From Acidobacteriota bacterium (GTDB lineage Bacteria > Acidobacteriota > Terriglobia > Bryobacterales > Bryobacteraceae): a stretch of 64,000 nucleotides of DNA. The stretch lies in the NCBI GenBank assembly GCA_025353165.1, contig JANXRE010000024.1, positions 1 to 64,000 on the forward strand. Reading direction: 5' to 3'. Below the pieces are notes generated by a model. The model did no database searches. It was not told the origin of the DNA and was given only the letters and a program-made list of their open reading frames with translations. Made by a program: the position numbers and the translations under genes. Below, piece by piece: positions 34,539 through 41,818 of the stretch (positions are counted from its first letter, which is position 1; the number at the start of each line of letters is the position of its first letter).

Positions 34539-36796
34539 CCTGTCCACTTCGATGGCGCTGCCTCGCCGGCGCCGCGCTCTGGACGGGCATCGGGCTTGTC
34601 CCGAGTCGCGGCCAGGCGCCCGAATCCCGGGTTGCGCGCGCCATTCGCGTGGAGCGGGCGCCCAAGCTCGATGGCACTCTGAACGATCCGCTGTGGCAAG
34701 GCGCGGAGCCCATTACGGATTTCCGGCAGCGCGAACCCTATGAAGGGCGGCCAGCCACCGAACGCACCGAAGTCCGCGTGCTCTACACGCGCCACGAAGT
34801 CTACTTCGGAATCGCCTGTTATGATTCCGACCCGAAGAGCATTGTCGCCACCGAACTGCGCCGCGATTTGCCCCAGACACTGGACGATTCCTTTGAGATC
34901 CTGATCGATTCCACACACGACCGGCGAAACGCATACGTCTTCCAGATCAATCCGCTGGGCGCCCAGGTCGACGGCCTGATCACGGAAGAGGGCCGCGCCG
35001 AGAACCAGGACTTCGATCCCGGCTGGGACGGCGTGTGGACCTCCTCCGCCACGGTCACGGCTACAGGCTGGACCGCCACGGTCGGCATTCCTTTCTCGAC
35101 GCTGAACTTCACGCAGGCTCAGGACGTGGTCTGGGGTCTGAATTTCAAGCGGTTCATACGCCGCAAGAATGAAGAAGACCTCTGGTCCGCTTATAGCCGG
35201 GTATTCGGCCTCGTGAAAGTTTCTGAGGCCGGGGAGCTGCGCGGCATCAACGAAATCGGCAGCGGCAGGCTGTTCATCGTAAAGCCGTACGCGCTTGGAG
35301 GATTCAGCTCGCTCTCCGGCAGCGGTACTCGCGCGCTGCATACCGGCGGAGTGGACATCAAGTATGGCTTGCGATCGAACCTGATCGCCAACCTCACGTT
35401 GAACACCGATTTCGCCGATACCGACGTCGACCGGCAGCGATTCAACCTGACGCCGTACAAGCTGTTCTTCCCGGAAAAGCGCCAGTTCTTCCTCGAGAAT
35501 GCCGGCATCTTCGATTTCTCGACCGGGTTCAACGACCTGCTCTTTTTCAGCCGGCAAATCGGAATCGACCCAAACTCTGGGCAAATCGTGCCCATCGATG
35601 CCGGGGGCAAGATCACCGGCTCTTTGGGAGGCTTTCAACTTGGCGTCATGGACGTGAAGACGCGGGCGGACGGCCTAAACCCGTCCGCCAATTACAGCGT
35701 GGTGCGCGTCAAGCGGTCGTTATTCGGGGACTCCTACATCGGCTTCATTGCCATCGACAAGGAGTCCGGAAATGTTTTGGACCGCTACAACCGGACGGGC
35801 GGAGTGGACACGAGGCTGGTCTTCTTCAAGAATCTGGTGCTGCATGGCTATGCAACGAAAACCGGCTCTCCGGGCATTCACAGCGGCAACACTGACTTTG
35901 GCGGCGACATTGCCTACAAGACGAACTGGCTGGACTTCAACGCCCGGCACAACAAGATCGGCCCCAACTTCAACCCCGAGGTGGGGTTCATTGAGCGCAC
36001 CGACGCCAAACAGGACTGGGTGGATCTGACCCTGACGCCCCGCCCAAGAATCCCGGGCGTTCGCGAATTGAGCTTCGAGGGATTCTTCTTTAACGCTCCT
36101 GACACTCACGGTGTTGTCCAGACCCAGGAGTGGCAAGCTACTTTTCGGGCGCTCTTCCATAACGGCGCGTACACCGACGACGATCTGTATGATGTCTTCA
36201 CCCAGCGCATCACGCAGCCCTTCAAGGTTTACAAGAACTTCTACATTCCGGCGGGCATTTACCACTTCGCCCGCCACCAGCTCACGTTTGGCTCGGGCCA
36301 GGATCGCAGGCTGACGTTCAATCTATTCGAACGCTTCGGGACCTACTACACCGGTCGCCTGAACGAATCGAACTTCCGCGCCAACTACCGGCCCGCGCCG
36401 CGCTTCTCCGTTTCCGCGAGCACCCAGTGGAATCGTTTTACGCTCGCGCAGGGAGATTTCTCGGTGGTGCTGGCTGGTTTGCAGGCCAACTATTCGTTCT
36501 CGCGCGCACTAACCACCAGCGCCTTCGTCCAGATGGATACGGCCAACACGCGGGCGGTGAGCGCCAATATCCGGCTGCGATACAACTACCGCCCCGACAG
36601 CGATTTGTACGTGGTGTACAACGTCGGAACACAATTCGCCAGCCTGGCCGCCGCCAATCCGATGCAACTTCGCGAGCAGCGTCTGTCCGTGAAACTGACG
36701 TATTCATTCATGCCGAAGGGAGGCGCCGGATCGGGGCGCCCGGCCGGAACTACTCGCGTTCCCGACGGCCGCGAAACGACCGGCGGCCGTATCTAG
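34535..36796 (+). CDS. DUF5916 outer-membrane-type protein with CBM9-like N-domain
   Basis: A 753-aa protein. A cleavable signal (MTCPLRWRCLAGAALWTGIG...) precedes a CBM9/DOMON-like sandwich at about 40-215 (IRVERAPKLDGTLNDPLWQGA, VYFGIACYDSDP, DDSFEILIDSTHDRRNAYVFQINPLG). The DUF5916 beta-barrel region then has LNTDFADTDVDRQRFNLTPY, LFFPEKRQFFLENAGIFDFSTG and many aromatic strands to the end. It is expected in the outer membrane; function is unknown. I set the start at the ATG overlapping the MFS stop (ATGA); the frame is open far upstream but there it only shadows the MFS gene. Its TAG stop is shared in CTAG with the convergent RidA gene. Confidence 0.88.
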   Translation: MTCPLRWRCLAGAALWTGIGLVPSRGQAPESRVARAIRVERAPKLDGTLNDPLWQGAEPITDFRQREPYEGRPATERTEVRVLYTRHEVYFGIACYDSDPKSIVATELRRDLPQTLDDSFEILIDSTHDRRNAYVFQINPLGAQVDGLITEEGRAENQDFDPGWDGVWTSSATVTATGWTATVGIPFSTLNFTQAQDVVWGLNFKRFIRRKNEEDLWSAYSRVFGLVKVSEAGELRGINEIGSGRLFIVKPYALGGFSSLSGSGTRALHTGGVDIKYGLRSNLIANLTLNTDFADTDVDRQRFNLTPYKLFFPEKRQFFLENAGIFDFSTGFNDLLFFSRQIGIDPNSGQIVPIDAGGKITGSLGGFQLGVMDVKTRADGLNPSANYSVVRVKRSLFGDSYIGFIAIDKESGNVLDRYNRTGGVDTRLVFFKNLVLHGYATKTGSPGIHSGNTDFGGDIAYKTNWLDFNARHNKIGPNFNPEVGFIERTDAKQDWVDLTLTPRPRIPGVRELSFEGFFFNAPDTHGVVQTQEWQATFRALFHNGAYTDDDLYDVFTQRITQPFKVYKNFYIPAGIYHFARHQLTFGSGQDRRLTFNLFERFGTYYTGRLNESNFRANYRPAPRFSVSASTQWNRFTLAQGDFSVVLAGLQANYSFSRALTTSAFVQMDTANTRAVSANIRLRYNYRPDSDLYVVYNVGTQFASLAAANPMQLREQRLSVKLTYSFMPKGGAGSGRPAGTTRVPDGRETTGGRI

Positions 36797-38007
36797 CGCA
36801 CGGCGACGATCGAGATCTGTTCGAGCGTAAGGTAGATGCCCTTCTCGCTGGGAGCGCGCCCGGCCGGGGGCAGTTGCTGAAGGGTAGTGCGGGCCGGGTG
36901 CACTAGGCCGAAGTACTCGGCGTAGACTCCGTTCATTCGCGTGAAATCGTCGAGATCGTCGAGGTAGACGTTGCTGGCCACGACGTTGGAGAAGGTGAGG
37001 CCGGCTTCCTCCAAACCGTCGAGCAGATTGCGCATGGTCTGGCGGAGTTGCGTCTCGACGGTGGACGCATAGATGCCGCCGTGAGGTCCGGGAATGAAAC
37101 CCGACTTGGCCGAGCAAAATAATGTGTCTCCCGCAAAAACGCAAGGGCTGGCGGTGGGGCTGGGTTCCATGTTCTTGGGCCGGACGGCGCGGCGCCGGGC
37201 CGGATCCACGACGGCAATGCCCGCGAATTCGATGTTAGCGCCCCCTGGCAATGCGGCCGCCTGAATAGTGGCGCGCGCCGGGGTATTGCCGAATTCGAAG
37301 TGCCCGGCATAGACCTCGTTCATGACACTCATCGGGATCTTGCCGGTAAGGTAGGGATTCACGAAGACCATGTTGGGGAAGCCGGCGCCGGCCGCCTTCA
37401 GGGTTTGCTCCATGCCGGCAAGCGCCAGTCGTACCTGTTCGGCGGGATCCTCGGGAATCCGGCCCGTCTGGGGATCCCGTCCGAAGAAGCCGGAAAGGTA
37501 CAGCCGGTCGCCCGCGAGCACGGCGGCGCTGAAGGGAGCGCCCGGGTGATAGCCCGGCGGGGTCACCACTTTTTTCCGTGACAGATCGCGCACCGCCACC
37601 GCGCTGATCTCGACGGGCGTGGCGGGCAGCCTGACGACGCCGATGGTCGACCGGGCCGGCGGCGCCTTGGGGAAGTAACTCCGGTAGAGGCGATCGAGCG
37701 GCGCTTCATCGACGCCGCCGGTCATGTATGCCTGCGTGTAGACGACGTGTTCCATCGTGAGTCCGGCGGCCTCGACGATGGTCCTGATGTTCTCAAGAAC
37801 GTTGCGGAATTGGCCTTCGGTATCCGGCGGAATCTGGCCGGCCGCATCCTTTGCTCCCTGGCCGGAAACATAGAGGAAATCATCGGTCAGGATGCCCGGG
37901 CTGTAAGGGCCAATCAGCTTTATGCCCGGAGGCGAGATCTGTTTCACGGCGCCGAACGCGCAGGTAAGAAAGAGAGTCGCTGTGAAGAGTCTCATATCCA
38001 GTCGCAT
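36793..38007 (-). CDS. Exported protein with three tandem RidA domains
   Basis: A 404-aa protein with signal MRLFTATLFLTCAFGA and three RidA (YjgF/YER057c/UK114) domains at about 25-142, 150-268 and 278-404. RidA proteins hydrolyse reactive enamine/imine intermediates using an Arg that binds the carboxylate. All three domains keep it: Arg119 (PPARST), Arg245 (TPARAT) and Arg373 (HPARTT). The first two also keep the downstream Glu (133, 260). Typical RidA is a ~130-aa trimer, so this reads as a covalent trimer, and the export signal is unusual. ATG 38007 was chosen; ATG 37995 is possible. Confidence 0.85.
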   Translation of the reverse strand: MRLDMRLFTATLFLTCAFGAVKQISPPGIKLIGPYSPGILTDDFLYVSGQGAKDAAGQIPPDTEGQFRNVLENIRTIVEAAGLTMEHVVYTQAYMTGGVDEAPLDRLYRSYFPKAPPARSTIGVVRLPATPVEISAVAVRDLSRKKVVTPPGYHPGAPFSAAVLAGDRLYLSGFFGRDPQTGRIPEDPAEQVRLALAGMEQTLKAAGAGFPNMVFVNPYLTGKIPMSVMNEVYAGHFEFGNTPARATIQAAALPGGANIEFAGIAVVDPARRRAVRPKNMEPSPTASPCVFAGDTLFCSAKSGFIPGPHGGIYASTVETQLRQTMRNLLDGLEEAGLTFSNVVASNVYLDDLDDFTRMNGVYAEYFGLVHPARTTLQQLPPAGRAPSEKGIYLTLEQISIVAVR

Positions 38008-38102: not shown

Positions 38103-40805
38103 ATGAGCCAAAACTCGGGAACACCCCGGCGGGATTTCCTCCGCAACGTCGCGCTCGGCATCGGGGCCGCCACAAATGCGCCGGGACAATCCCCGCCGGC
38201 CGGCAAGCCCGCCGCCCCCTCGGCAATCGGCTATCCCAGAGTCTTCACCGGCCGCCAACTCGCGATGATCGCCTTCCCTTTGGGCGGTGTCGGAGCCGGC
38301 AGCCTCAGCCTCGGCGGCCGGGGACAACTGCGCGACTGGGAGATTTTCAACCGGCCGAACAAGGGCTACGCGCCATCCTACGGCTTTCCCTCCATCTGGG
38401 CCCAGGCCGGTACAGCGAAGCCCGTGGCGCGTGTTCTCGAAGCGCGCTTTCTGCCGCCTTACGAGGGCGCGGACGGGCTCGGTTCGAACAACGTTCCCGG
38501 CCTTAGCCGACTCGCATCCGCGAAGTTCACGGGCGAGTACCCGCTTGCGCGCATCGATTTTCAGGACCGCGACCTCCCGGTGCGGGTCTCGCTCGACGCC
38601 TTCTCCCCGTTCATTCCGCACGACGCCGAAGAGTCGGGACTGCCGGTGGCGATTCTGCGCTATCGCGTGACGAACCCCGGCCGCGTCGAGGCCAAGGTGG
38701 CCATCGCGTTCTCCGTCGACAATCCTGTCAAGGTAAGCCGCGACCAGGGTGGCGCGGCGGATCTCCACAAGGACTCGCGAGAGAATTCATACCGCTCCGA
38801 GGAAGGTCTCGCGGGAATCGTCATGAGCAATCCCGCGCTGGGCGCCGAGGAGCCCATGCGCGGAGAATTCGCGATCTGCGCCGCGAACTCCGGGGATGCG
38901 CGAGTGACCCACTGGCGCGGGTGGCCGGAGAGCCGATGGTGGAATGCGCCCATGCTTTTCTGGGACGATTTCTCGGACGACGGCGAACTCGGCGCGGAAC
39001 CGGACCCGCACGGTGTCGTTGGCGCGATCTCGGTCAAGCGGACCATCCCCGCCGGGAAGTCGGCCGAATACACGTTCCTGCTCGCCTGGCGTTTTCCCAA
39101 CCGTACTCCGGACTGGTGCGGTTGGGCCGCGCCCAAGGGCGAAGGCAAGACCATTATCGGCAACCACTACTCGGTGCGGTTCGCGAGCGCGTGGGACGCA
39201 GCCCGGCACGTCGCGGATAACCTGCCGGAACTCGAGAAGCGCACGCGCATGTTTGCGAGCGCCTTCCGTGAGAGCACGCTGCCGGCGGCGGTGAAAGAAG
39301 CGGCGTCGGCCAATCTTTCGACGCTCGCATCTACCACCACCTTCCGCACCGCGGATGGCGAGTTCCACGGATTCGAAGGCGTCAACGACAAGGAGGGCTG
39401 CTGCCACGGAAACTGCACGCATGTGTGGAACTACGAGACCTCCACCGCGCACCTGTTCCCGTCGCTGGCGCGTTCGCTGCGCAAGGCGGCCTTCGGCTAT
39501 TCGATGGACGATGCCGGCGCCATGCATTTCCGCCAGTCCCTGCCCGACGGAAAATTGCGCTCGGGTTACGCCGCGACGGACGGCCAGATGGGGCAAGTGA
39601 TGCACGCCTACCTGGACTGGCGATTGTCGGGCGATGCGGACTGGCTGGCCGGGATCTGGCCGCGCGTGAAGAAGGGCCTCGAATTCGCATGGGTAAAGGG
39701 TGGATGGGACAGCGATCGCGACGGCGTCCTCGAAGGCGTGCAGCACAACACCTACGACGTGGAGTTTTACGGGCCGAATCCGATGTGCGGCATCTACTAC
39801 CTCGGTGCGCTGCGCGCCGGCGAGGAGATGGCGCGCGCCGTCGGCGACCAGACTTCCGCCGCCGAATATAGGCGTCTTTTTGAGCACGGCAGCCGTTGGA
39901 TCGACGAGAATCTGTTCAACGGCGAATTCTACATTCAGAAGATTCGCGGGTTCACTAAAGATCAGATCGCTCCCAACCTGCGCAGCGACATGGGTTCGGA
40001 CGACACTGAGAAACCGGAATACCAGGCCGGAGAAGGCTGCCTCGTCGATCAGCTCGTCGGGCAGTACATGTCGGAGGTCTCCGGGCTCGGGGCGCTCGTC
40101 TCGCCGAAGAACCTCCGCACAACGCTCGAGGCGATCTACCGGTACAACTACAAGCGCTCGATGGCTACCCACGACAACGTGCAAAGAACGTTCGCATTGA
40201 ACGACGAAGCCGCCATCGTCGTCTGCGATTACGGCAAGGCTAAGCGGCCGCACATCCCGTTCCCATACTACGCGGAGGTGTTTACGGGACTCGAATACGT
40301 GGCCGCCACCCACATGATGTACGCCGGAATGGTGCGCGAAGGCGTCGAATGCGTCAGCAGCATTCGCGCGCGCTACGACGGATTCAAGCGCAACCCGTGG
40401 GACGAAGCCGAGTGCGGCCACCATTACGCGCGCGCGATGTCGGCCTGGTCCGGCGTGCTGGCCCTCAGCGGATTCCTTTACAACGGGCCGCAAGCCGCCG
40501 TGATCGCGCTACCCCGCGTCAATCAGGACAACTTCCGGTCGTTCTGGTCGTCGGCCACGGGTTGGGGAACTTTCACCCGTGTCGCCGATGGGACCGGCGT
40601 GCGGTTCACCATGCGGGTGCTCTCGGGAAAGCTGCCCTGCGGCTCCTGCGAGATCAAAGCCGGTCCCGGCGCGAGCTCGGTCCGGCTCAACGGCCATAGC
40701 GTGCCCCACAACGTGGAGCGCGCCGGGGAGCGCACGGTGTTCCGGCTCACCGAGCCGGTGATTTTAGAGCAGGACGCGGAACTGCACTTGGAAGTAAAAG
40801 CGTGA
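38103..40805 (+). CDS. GH116 family glycosidase (GBA2-like), Tat-exported
   Basis: A 900-aa protein with a twin-arginine signal (RRDFLRNVALGIGAA). The GH116 N-terminal beta-domain (MIAFPLGGVGAGSLSLGGRGQLRDWEIFNRP) is followed by an (alpha/alpha)6 catalytic domain. The probable nucleophile is Glu554 (HNTYDVEFYG) and the acid/base is Asp649 (CLVDQLVGQY), by comparison with the GBA2 and Thermoanaerobacterium enzymes. Members cleave beta-glucosides or beta-xylosides, and glucosylceramide in animals. The enzyme should act in the periplasm or outside. The gene overlaps the next gene, a G3E GTPase, by GTGA. Confidence 0.92.
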   Translation: MSQNSGTPRRDFLRNVALGIGAATNAPGQSPPAGKPAAPSAIGYPRVFTGRQLAMIAFPLGGVGAGSLSLGGRGQLRDWEIFNRPNKGYAPSYGFPSIWAQAGTAKPVARVLEARFLPPYEGADGLGSNNVPGLSRLASAKFTGEYPLARIDFQDRDLPVRVSLDAFSPFIPHDAEESGLPVAILRYRVTNPGRVEAKVAIAFSVDNPVKVSRDQGGAADLHKDSRENSYRSEEGLAGIVMSNPALGAEEPMRGEFAICAANSGDARVTHWRGWPESRWWNAPMLFWDDFSDDGELGAEPDPHGVVGAISVKRTIPAGKSAEYTFLLAWRFPNRTPDWCGWAAPKGEGKTIIGNHYSVRFASAWDAARHVADNLPELEKRTRMFASAFRESTLPAAVKEAASANLSTLASTTTFRTADGEFHGFEGVNDKEGCCHGNCTHVWNYETSTAHLFPSLARSLRKAAFGYSMDDAGAMHFRQSLPDGKLRSGYAATDGQMGQVMHAYLDWRLSGDADWLAGIWPRVKKGLEFAWVKGGWDSDRDGVLEGVQHNTYDVEFYGPNPMCGIYYLGALRAGEEMARAVGDQTSAAEYRRLFEHGSRWIDENLFNGEFYIQKIRGFTKDQIAPNLRSDMGSDDTEKPEYQAGEGCLVDQLVGQYMSEVSGLGALVSPKNLRTTLEAIYRYNYKRSMATHDNVQRTFALNDEAAIVVCDYGKAKRPHIPFPYYAEVFTGLEYVAATHMMYAGMVREGVECVSSIRARYDGFKRNPWDEAECGHHYARAMSAWSGVLALSGFLYNGPQAAVIALPRVNQDNFRSFWSSATGWGTFTRVADGTGVRFTMRVLSGKLPCGSCEIKAGPGASSVRLNGHSVPHNVERAGERTVFRLTEPVILEQDAELHLEVKA

Positions 40806-41818
40806 CCGCCCGGCCATACCTCGTGCTGGTCGGCGGTTTTCTCGGGGCAGGGAAGACAACTCTGATCCTTGCGGCCGCCCGGGAACTAGAGAAACGCGGC
40901 CTGCGCAGCGCCGCGATTCTGAACGATCAAGGCGACGCGCTGGTGGATACCCAGACCGTCCGCTCCAGTGGCCTGCCCGCCGGGGAAGTCACGGGCGGCT
41001 GCTTCTGCTGCAACTTCACCGAATTGATGGACGTCGCGGACCGTCTCCGCGAACACTCGCCCGACGTGATCTTCGCCGAGCCGGTCGGGAGTTGCACCGA
41101 CCTGTCGGCGACCACTATCCAGCCGATTCGGACGATGTACCTCGATCGATACCGCCTGGCGCCTTTGACGGTACTGGTGGATCCGGCGGGAGCTCCTACG
41201 AATCCGGAATTGGAGTTTCTCTATCGTAACCAGATCGAGGAAGCCGATCTGGTTCTGATGACCAAGGCGGATCTACACCCCTCGCCGCCGCATCTTCGGC
41301 AGGTTAGCGCGAAAACGGGGCAGGGAGTCGCGGCGTGGCTCGACGAAGTTCTCTCGGGAACTCTACAGGCAGGCTCCCGCGTTTTGGACATCGACTACGA
41401 GCGCTATGCGCAAGCCGAAGCTTCGCTCGCCTGGCTGAACTTCGAGGCGACTCTCGAATGCCATCCCGCGCAGTCTCCGGCGATGGTGCTCGGCCCGTTT
41501 CTCGATTCGCTCGACCGGGAGCTGACGCGGGCAGGAGTTGGAATCGTACACCTGAAAGCCACCGACGATTCGTCGTCGGGTTTCCTGAAAGCGGCGCTCT
41601 GCGCCAACGGCCAGGAACCGGCCATCGAAGGAGCGCTCGACGCCTCTCCAACGTCGCGTCACGACCTCCTGCTAAATCTGCGAGCCTCGGCGAAGCCGGA
41701 ACCGGTGCGCGAAATCGTGGAGCGCGAAGTCGGAAAGCTGCCGGGCTCGCTCACCGGTATGCGCCTGTCCTGTTTCTCGCCCTTAGCCCCAAATCCCCAA
41801 TACCGGATGCAATTATGA
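40802..41818 (+). CDS. G3E (CobW/COG0523) GTPase, metallochaperone-like
   Basis: A 338-aa SIMIBI-class GTPase. Walker A is GGFLGAGKTT at residues 11-20, and the zinc/cobalt-type cysteine motif GGCFCC (Cys67, Cys69, Cys70) is intact. IFAEPVGSCTDL corresponds to the switch/Walker B region, and LVLMTKADLH is the base-recognition motif (T/NKxD). COG0523 proteins insert or deliver metals to client enzymes. The C-terminal half is divergent and lacks a clear CobW_C domain. The GTG start overlaps the GH116 stop by 4 nt; why a glycosidase would be coupled to a metallochaperone is unexplained. Confidence 0.88.
   Translation: MTARPYLVLVGGFLGAGKTTLILAAARELEKRGLRSAAILNDQGDALVDTQTVRSSGLPAGEVTGGCFCCNFTELMDVADRLREHSPDVIFAEPVGSCTDLSATTIQPIRTMYLDRYRLAPLTVLVDPAGAPTNPELEFLYRNQIEEADLVLMTKADLHPSPPHLRQVSAKTGQGVAAWLDEVLSGTLQAGSRVLDIDYERYAQAEASLAWLNFEATLECHPAQSPAMVLGPFLDSLDRELTRAGVGIVHLKATDDSSSGFLKAALCANGQEPAIEGALDASPTSRHDLLLNLRASAKPEPVREIVEREVGKLPGSLTGMRLSCFSPLAPNPQYRMQL

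Follow-up and report, generated by a model that had tools for sequence, protein, structure and literature searches.

The locus

The window analysed here is a stretch of 64,000 nucleotides (nt) at the start of contig JANXRE010000024.1 of an Acidobacteriota genome, and the subject of this report is a gene at positions 36793-38007 that encodes a protein of 404 residues, in which a hydrophobic N-terminus, MRLDMRLFTATLFLTCAFGA, is followed by three RidA domains. A preliminary description of the window had placed this open reading frame (ORF) at the correct coordinates; its strand needs correcting, as the gene lies on the minus strand and not on the forward strand, where frame 1 of the same stretch contains stops. 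The start codon is that of Met1 or possibly that of Met5 (37995). The gene and its parts are as follows.

36793..38007, minus strand: 3x-RidA gene, 404 residues (ORF translation, Pfam and NCBIfam profiles)
37948..38007, minus strand: signal-peptide-like N-terminus, residues 1-20 (hydropathy 2.24, n-region charge +1; similar in relatives)
37585..37917, minus strand: RidA domain 1, about residues 31-141, with Tyr35, Gly49, Asn73, Arg119 and Glu133 (profile and alignment)
37198..37548, minus strand: RidA domain 2, about residues 154-270, with Phe159, Gly173, Asn230, Arg245 and Glu260 (search matches and alignment)
36796..37179, minus strand: RidA domain 3, about residues 277-404, with Ala286, Ala300, Lys301, Asn359, Arg373 and Glu396/Gln397 (translation and alignment)
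36985..37179, minus strand: strongly conserved N-half of domain 3, residues 277-341 (alignment), proposed to line a pocket with Arg245 in a presumed pairing

The gene has no close partner on the same strand. Its 3' end overlaps a convergent CBM9/DUF5916 gene (34649-36796) by 4 bases, and a divergent GH116 gene begins at 38103, 95 bases away.

Three RidA domains in one chain

Both the PF01042 (Ribonuc_L-PSP) profile, with 219.7 bits against a cut-off of 27.3 (E 9.5e-66), and TIGR00004, with 202 bits against a cut-off of 106.25, match the window protein in three stretches, which bears out the earlier proposal of three RidA domains in one chain. The substrate-binding arginine assigned to each domain is likewise present, with Arg119, Arg245 and Arg373 at the position of TdcF Arg105; they are kept in 62, 68 and 60, respectively, of 68 aligned proteins, the window protein included. 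The longer Arg-to-Glu spacing described for domain 3 is also found (+23 to Glu396 or +24 to Gln397, versus +14 in domain 1 and +15 in domain 2), domain 3 containing an insertion of about 8 residues between Arg373 and Glu396/Gln397.

In TdcF, seven conserved residues form the pocket, namely Tyr17, Gly31, Asn56, Asn88, Arg105, Pro114 and Glu120 (PMC1884159). Every domain of the window protein has equivalents of Arg105 and Pro114, and domains 1 and 2 have one of Glu120, but in an alignment made by eye the full set of seven is not present in every domain. Domain 1 has Asp105 at the Asn88 position, domain 2 has Phe159 at that of Tyr17 and a glycine at that of Asn56, and domain 3 has Ala286 at Tyr17 and Ala300 at Gly31, with the Glu120 region displaced by the insertion; Lys301 of domain 3 aligns with Gln32. 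Compared with the RidA and TdcF homotrimers (PMC1884159), which are 26-38% identical to it over one domain among the single-domain matches listed, the window protein is a single chain with an export-type start and three unequal pockets.

The fused arrangement pointed out in the preliminary description is not new. Proteins with three tandem RidA domains, presumed to be covalent trimers, were named 3x-RidA in 2015, with EF_0115 as an example (Niehaus et al., 2015; PMC4433059); the window protein has the three-domain fusion that marks this group, and its likeness to EF_0115 is by description only. None of the 49 Protein Data Bank (PDB) sequences found at E <= 0.001 is matched by more than one stretch, so that no solved triple RidA is among them. 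The main text of the 2015 paper, taken alone, does not mention the terms signal, secreted, periplasm, extracellular or Acidobacteri, and the term 3x-RidA was found in no other paper in the literature searched. Among the top-ranked results of that search, whose coverage leaves many subscription papers outside, no paper was found on an exported RidA or exported 3x-RidA, nor on the export, partners or unequal sites of 3x-RidA proteins. What appears to be new, as judged from sequences, is therefore the export-type start, the pyridoxal 5'-phosphate (PLP) enzyme partners and the unequal sites, the triple fusion being already known.

The Pfam family name, with its old L-PSP annotation, speaks for a different role, either as a binding protein or regulator rather than an enzyme or as an extracytoplasmic ribonuclease. 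This is considered very improbable in view of the conserved arginine positions and the linkage to PLP enzymes described below; with regard to a ribonuclease, no RNA-related gene was found among the neighbour clusters that were named, most neighbours being unannotated.

Distribution of the family

A set of 101 genomes, the window's own included, was searched for full-length relatives, defined by an identity of 45% or more across most of the query. Such relatives are present in 34 of the 101 genomes, 33 by this definition and one (G005) in which the match came in two pieces and an intact three-domain ORF is present; G001, the sole other genome of the same genus in the set, has no full-length relative. 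Species genomes were scanned as well, with 130 relatives as the outcome. The best 80 of the 130, 51-71% identical to the window protein, were used; these are acidobacterial, save one labelled Acidimicrobiia (L073), a label that is probably wrong. The own genome also carries a paralogue (contig C63, L127:15534-16952) that is 86% identical over the mature part, and the dN/dS ratio between the two copies is 0.18, falling to a minimum of 0.085 over the first half of domain 3. Given relatives in 34 of 101 genomes, 80 loci and a dN/dS of 0.18, the window ORF is not a product of chance. The paralogue sits behind a flavin monooxygenase-like gene, the C-terminal end of which seems, by eye, to be partly repeated just upstream.

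Triple fusions on plasmids were considered and rejected: 858 plasmid records matched, and the 15 matches listed are single RidA genes, since a single stretch of about 370-390 bases, hit three times over, accounts for their coverage of 79-83%.

An export-type start

A start was scored as export-type when the best 10-residue hydropathy near it was at least 1.75 and the charge of the n-region was not negative. A hydrophobic N-terminus precedes domain 1 in all of the 80 relatives, and the test was passed by all 79 with a called start, as well as by the remaining one (L054), scored from its evident start; by comparison, none of four ordinary single RidA proteins of the own genome passes (L001, L002, L004 and L005). 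The signal peptide of the preliminary description is thereby upheld as to its form, as a signal-peptide-like start read from the sequence of the window protein and its relatives, and the window protein is presumably cleaved and exported.

Export-like starts occur elsewhere among RidA proteins. Two single RidA proteins of the own genome have them (L003, Sec-like; L010, twin-arginine), and signal- or lipoprotein-like starts are seen, by eye, in the phylum's distant three-domain RidA proteins L163-L168, L172 and L173, with two such genes, in tandem, at L167; the lipoprotein-like N-termini are those of L166, L167 and L173.

Predicted fold

The AlphaFold2 model of the mature protein, calculated from an alignment of 68 sequences, has a mean pLDDT of 94.8 and a pTM of 0.93, with no residue below 70. 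When the model was compared with known structures by Foldseek and VIA-align, single RidA chains matched about one domain (Z 15-18), and the only entries among the PDB matches listed that cover the whole chain were chorismatases (4bps, 5ag3 and 5a3k, which are presumably FkbO/Hyg5). The likeness of these enzymes to the model is one of fold from end to end, with Z of about 26 (26.3; root-mean-square deviation 3.0, 285 aligned residues, model residues 21-383), and the difference lies in an identity of only 13-15% in the structural match. Chorismatases are YjgF-type pseudo-trimers. The earlier expectation was of a pseudo-trimer with three inter-domain active sites; the model is a confidently predicted, compact single chain with this end-to-end match, and three equal active sites are unlikely.

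The end-to-end match raises an alternative, namely that the protein has been repurposed in the manner of a chorismatase, its domain-2/domain-3 pocket carrying out another reaction, such as the hydrolysis or isomerisation of a carboxylate, for instance a sugar acid, and the neighbouring PLP enzymes merely sharing its pathway. The uniqueness of the chorismatases among the matches covering the whole chain favours such a role; the low identity, the lack of any chorismatase among the 49 PDB sequences found at E <= 0.001 and the retention of the three RidA arginines in most relatives argue against it, and overall it is regarded as rather unlikely.

A further single-chain protein for comparison is the cyanuric acid hydrolase AtzD, which is thought to consist of three YjgF-type units joined in one chain and whose active site lies in a central barrel (PMC3758960), whereas the conserved residues of the window protein map to RidA-type inter-domain positions. 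The Toblerone fold of AtzD, with its central metal site, is not among the structural matches listed, which is no evidence of its absence.

Three unequal sites

Conservation was compared across six half-domains in the alignment of 68 proteins, the window protein included. There are 34 invariant positions in all, of which 28 fall in the C-half of domain 2 (7) and the N-half of domain 3 (21), the remaining four half-domains having 1, 2, 0 and 3. Conservation in the family is highest in the N-half of domain 3, where 21 of 65 positions are invariant; residues of this half found in 68 of 68 proteins include Asn279, Met280, Ser283, Thr285, Ala286, Ser287, Pro288, Cys289, Cys298, Ser299 and Lys301, and Ala300, at the place of Gly31, is found in 66. 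The earlier suggestion that domain 3 may simply have diverged does not fit this pattern, which looks like specialisation, and three equal active sites are made unlikely by the presence of one residue set that is invariant and altered and of two others that are lost in some relatives.

The assignment of these residues to pockets can be approached through TdcF. There, a bond links Glu120 of one subunit to residue 107 of its neighbour, and any side chain in place of Gly31 would run into Glu120 (PMC1884159). The cross-interface bond means that one subunit gives Arg105 and residue 107 to the pocket and the other gives Glu120, and the Gly31 and Tyr17 sides presumably go with Glu120; in the fused chain, the arginine of domain n would then meet the Tyr17/Gly31 side of domain n+1. 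Residue losses are consistent with this arrangement: all 8 rows that lack Arg373 also lack Tyr35, versus 4 of the 60 others, some of these 4 through gaps at match edges (Fisher 6.7e-8), and the 3 rows with a cysteine at 119 all have a cysteine at 159. As proof of the pairing, however, the covariation was rejected, as it corresponds to only 4, 4 and 1 changes on the tree, and it is kept as a hint. The cysteine pairs (Cys119 and Cys159 in L074, L080 and L082) could form an inter-domain disulfide that closes one pocket.

In a tree of single domains (63 rows and few columns), the family's domains 1, 2 and 3 fall into three separate starred groups, and its domain 3 sequences cluster with the domain 3s from several further exported subfamilies and with one single RidA (16 rows; 96, starred), so that the asymmetry looks old. 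By eye, L167 (both genes), L168 and L171 also have a lysine at the place of Lys301 in domain 3, and L163 and L164 do not. A degenerate three-domain relative (L169:941-2179, genome G043) has an arginine in place of the conserved lysine. With its Lys301 and without equivalents of Tyr17 and Gly31, the one invariant pocket is a second point in favour of a chorismatase-like change of reaction.

PLP enzymes encoded next to the relatives

Neighbouring genes were identified by a codon-usage gene caller followed by scans of all frames with hidden Markov models, and the counts refer to the 77 of 80 loci whose upstream sequence extends for 900 nt or more. The immediately preceding gene on the same strand encodes a DgaE-like PLP ammonia lyase at 30 of these loci and a HisC-like aminotransferase at 9; with at least 1.3 kb upstream, the numbers are 29, 8 and 37 with neither, of 74. 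The gap between the DgaE-like and RidA genes was measured in 29 cases, from RidA starts chosen by a script; it lies between -4 and +51 nt in 28 of them and is 127 nt in the other, with four pairs overlapping by 4 nt. A scripted search found a twin-arginine (RR) motif in 27 of the 30 DgaE-like and in all 9 HisC-like proteins; of the three DgaE-like proteins without one, L049 is clipped at a contig end, L072 has TRRGLF and L099 looks broken. At the locus of the window protein's sister (L047; 99, starred), a DgaE-like gene lies 5 nt upstream.

The association recurs across the family. Adjacency changes on starred, well-supported branches of the 68-row tree at least 5 times for the DgaE-like gene and at least 3 times for the HisC-like gene. 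Of the 101 genomes, 17 carry members of the near DgaE clade (best E <= 1e-100), and all 17 have a 3x-RidA, with 17 further genomes having a 3x-RidA and no member of this clade (Fisher 2.9e-10, in a test that ignores kinship). The DgaE-like partner matches its family with E 8.6e-31 over 323 residues, and seven such proteins match TIGR01437 with E of 2e-45 to 1e-50. In common with the PLP family that it matches, the partner has the lysine of an SGGK motif (16 of 16), which aligns with SGAK of 7lc0, and it differs from that family in its twin-arginine start and its score below the cut-off.

The one DgaE-like gene of the own genome belongs to another clade; it has a twin-arginine start, and it is directly followed by a single RidA gene, also with a twin-arginine start, the two overlapping by 4 nt if a GTG start is used and not at all if a later ATG is used. 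Next after this pair (L140:2998-6476, own contig C21) comes a gene of the peptidase S51 type, whose product has a signal-like start. DgaE-Rid adjacency was rejected as a general rule: when 20 loci of the other clade were sampled, only 3 had a Rid gene nearby, or 4 of 21 if the own-genome locus is counted; the five Rid proteins at these four loci all have, by eye, twin-arginine-like starts. Genomes G072-G074 each encode at least 17 DgaE-like PLP lyases, and those of them among the 20 sampled loci have twin-arginine-like starts, again by eye.

Genes of another kind are found at some loci. In L117, L123 and L125 the exported-type 3x-RidA chain continues into a C-terminal SMP-30/gluconolactonase-like domain (SGL, E 4.9e-46 in L123), and a model built from these fusions finds such a domain at 9 of the 80 loci, the three fusions included; an exported double cupin, MR/MLE, HpcH/HpaI and UxuA-like proteins and cytochrome c each occur at a few loci. 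The sugar-acid-type neighbours (MR/MLE, HpcH/HpaI and UxuA-like) and the gluconolactonase-type fusion would suit a protein repurposed like a chorismatase, whereas the linkage to PLP enzymes suits RidA chemistry.

Several known systems share single elements of this arrangement. RidA genes are known to cluster with those of PLP enzymes able to release enamines (PMC4433059). PvdN and PtaA of pseudomonads are PLP enzymes exported by the twin-arginine (Tat) pathway that act in the periplasm; they serve in siderophore tailoring, and no RidA partner is mentioned in the portions of that source consulted (PMC6206403). In Pseudoalteromonas, the RidA protein OngD is needed together with a deaminase for the use of an oxidised amino sugar, OngD being a single-domain protein of 127 residues in a pathway placed in the cytoplasm (PMC9537276). 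In haloarchaeal chitinase clusters, DgaE-like genes accompany a RutC-family gene and a glucose dehydrogenase gene, the RutC-family protein there being called a repressor (PMC12343721).

A proposed extracytoplasmic role

The reading favoured here, to which an even chance is given, takes the window protein for an exported RidA pseudo-trimer with covalently linked units, whose work outside the cytoplasm would be that of an imine/enamine (2-aminoacrylate-type) hydrolase or of a close relative of one. Indirect support for extracytoplasmic imine/enamine chemistry comes from the relatives, whose genes often form operon-like pairs with those of Tat-type PLP enzymes. Because RidA-PLP pairing recurs with export-type starts on both partners, an exported lyase working together with an exported RidA is proposed. 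The DgaE-like enzyme would dehydrate an alpha-amino-beta-hydroxy acid, with an amino-sugar acid such as glucosaminate as the likeliest substrate, and thus release an enamine; hydrolysis of the imine by the RidA protein would then yield a 2-keto acid and ammonia and spare the exported PLP enzyme. In each pocket, Arg and Asn would come from domain n and the Tyr17, Gly31 and Glu120 positions from domain n+1; the main working site would be the domain-2/domain-3 pocket (Arg245 with Ala286, Ser299, Ala300, Lys301 and Glu396), with the other two in an auxiliary role. For the window copy, the partner would have to act in trans or be of another kind.

A broader and more tentative extension, held to be possible but somewhat less than probable, is that Acidobacteriota carry out PLP-dependent deamination in the periplasm, with Tat-exported lyases of the DgaE kind and aminotransferases releasing enamines and exported RidA pseudo-trimers finishing the reaction, their three-fold symmetry being broken, with one pocket rebuilt (Arg245 with the invariant Lys301) and two canonical pockets free to decay. 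Lys301 might then act as a Schiff-base group or as a second group for an anion, for a bulkier substrate such as the imine of an amino-sugar acid.

A number of observations weigh against the proposal of an exported RidA pseudo-trimer with imine/enamine chemistry. With regard to export, 14 of the 39 other genes of the window also pass the start test, which is therefore not specific to signal peptides, and the related three-domain protein L169 has, by eye, no evident signal peptide. With regard to the sites, the pocket pairing is presumed, the residue covariation involves very few independent changes, and the invariant pocket, with neither Tyr17 nor Gly31 and with an added lysine, may differ from RidA in its chemistry. 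With regard to the partner, 38 of the 77 loci have neither PLP neighbour, the window copy itself adjoins the CBM9/DUF5916 and GH116 genes instead, the own genome shows only the DgaE-like gene of the other clade (43% identical), and in that clade two of the three Rid genes nearby in the 20 sampled loci are on the opposite strand; the significance of the co-occurrence of the near DgaE clade with 3x-RidA also disregards kinship. Moreover, the seven DgaE-like proteins reach 155-173 of 385 bits with TIGR01437 and 130-168 of 600 bits with NF047797, and these scores lie far under the curated cut-offs, so that the substrate proposed for them is tentative.

The copies without a PLP neighbour, that of the window among them, would fit a general protection of the envelope by the protein, as a non-specific periplasmic scavenger of imines or a chlorination-activated holdase tied to no one PLP enzyme. 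E. coli RidA is a chlorination-activated holdase chaperone, and several other three-domain RidA proteins have export-type starts. However, the recurrent, tight linkage to two distinct PLP families and the invariant pocket argue against so general a function, which is considered improbable. Taken as a whole, the earlier interpretation of the gene is partly supported, in its domains and start, in a compact single-chain fold and indirectly in its extracytoplasmic chemistry; it needs correcting as to the strand, the fusion, which was already known, the sites, which are unlikely to be equal, and domain 3, which is not simply a diverged copy.

RidA is usually treated as a cytoplasmic guard against enamines from PLP enzymes. 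The occurrence of exported-type RidA proteins together with exported-type PLP enzymes would imply that, in a large soil phylum, enamine damage also arises beyond the cytoplasm, or that a complete deamination route runs there. In addition, a naturally asymmetric RidA trimer would offer three sites that can be mutated singly, which is impossible in a homotrimer.

Other genes at these loci

The double cupin, which has a signal-like start and weakly resembles ureidoglycine aminohydrolase, is encoded two genes upstream of RidA at 8 loci (for example L052:7775-8653). A gene of the acido-empty-quinoprotein/pyrroloquinoline quinone (PQQ) dehydrogenase kind is found at L101:4650-6224, and its cluster recurs at 22 of the 80 loci. 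In the window, the GH116 glycosidase gene (38103-41818) encodes a twin-arginine-like start and overlaps a CobW-type GTPase gene by 4 bases.

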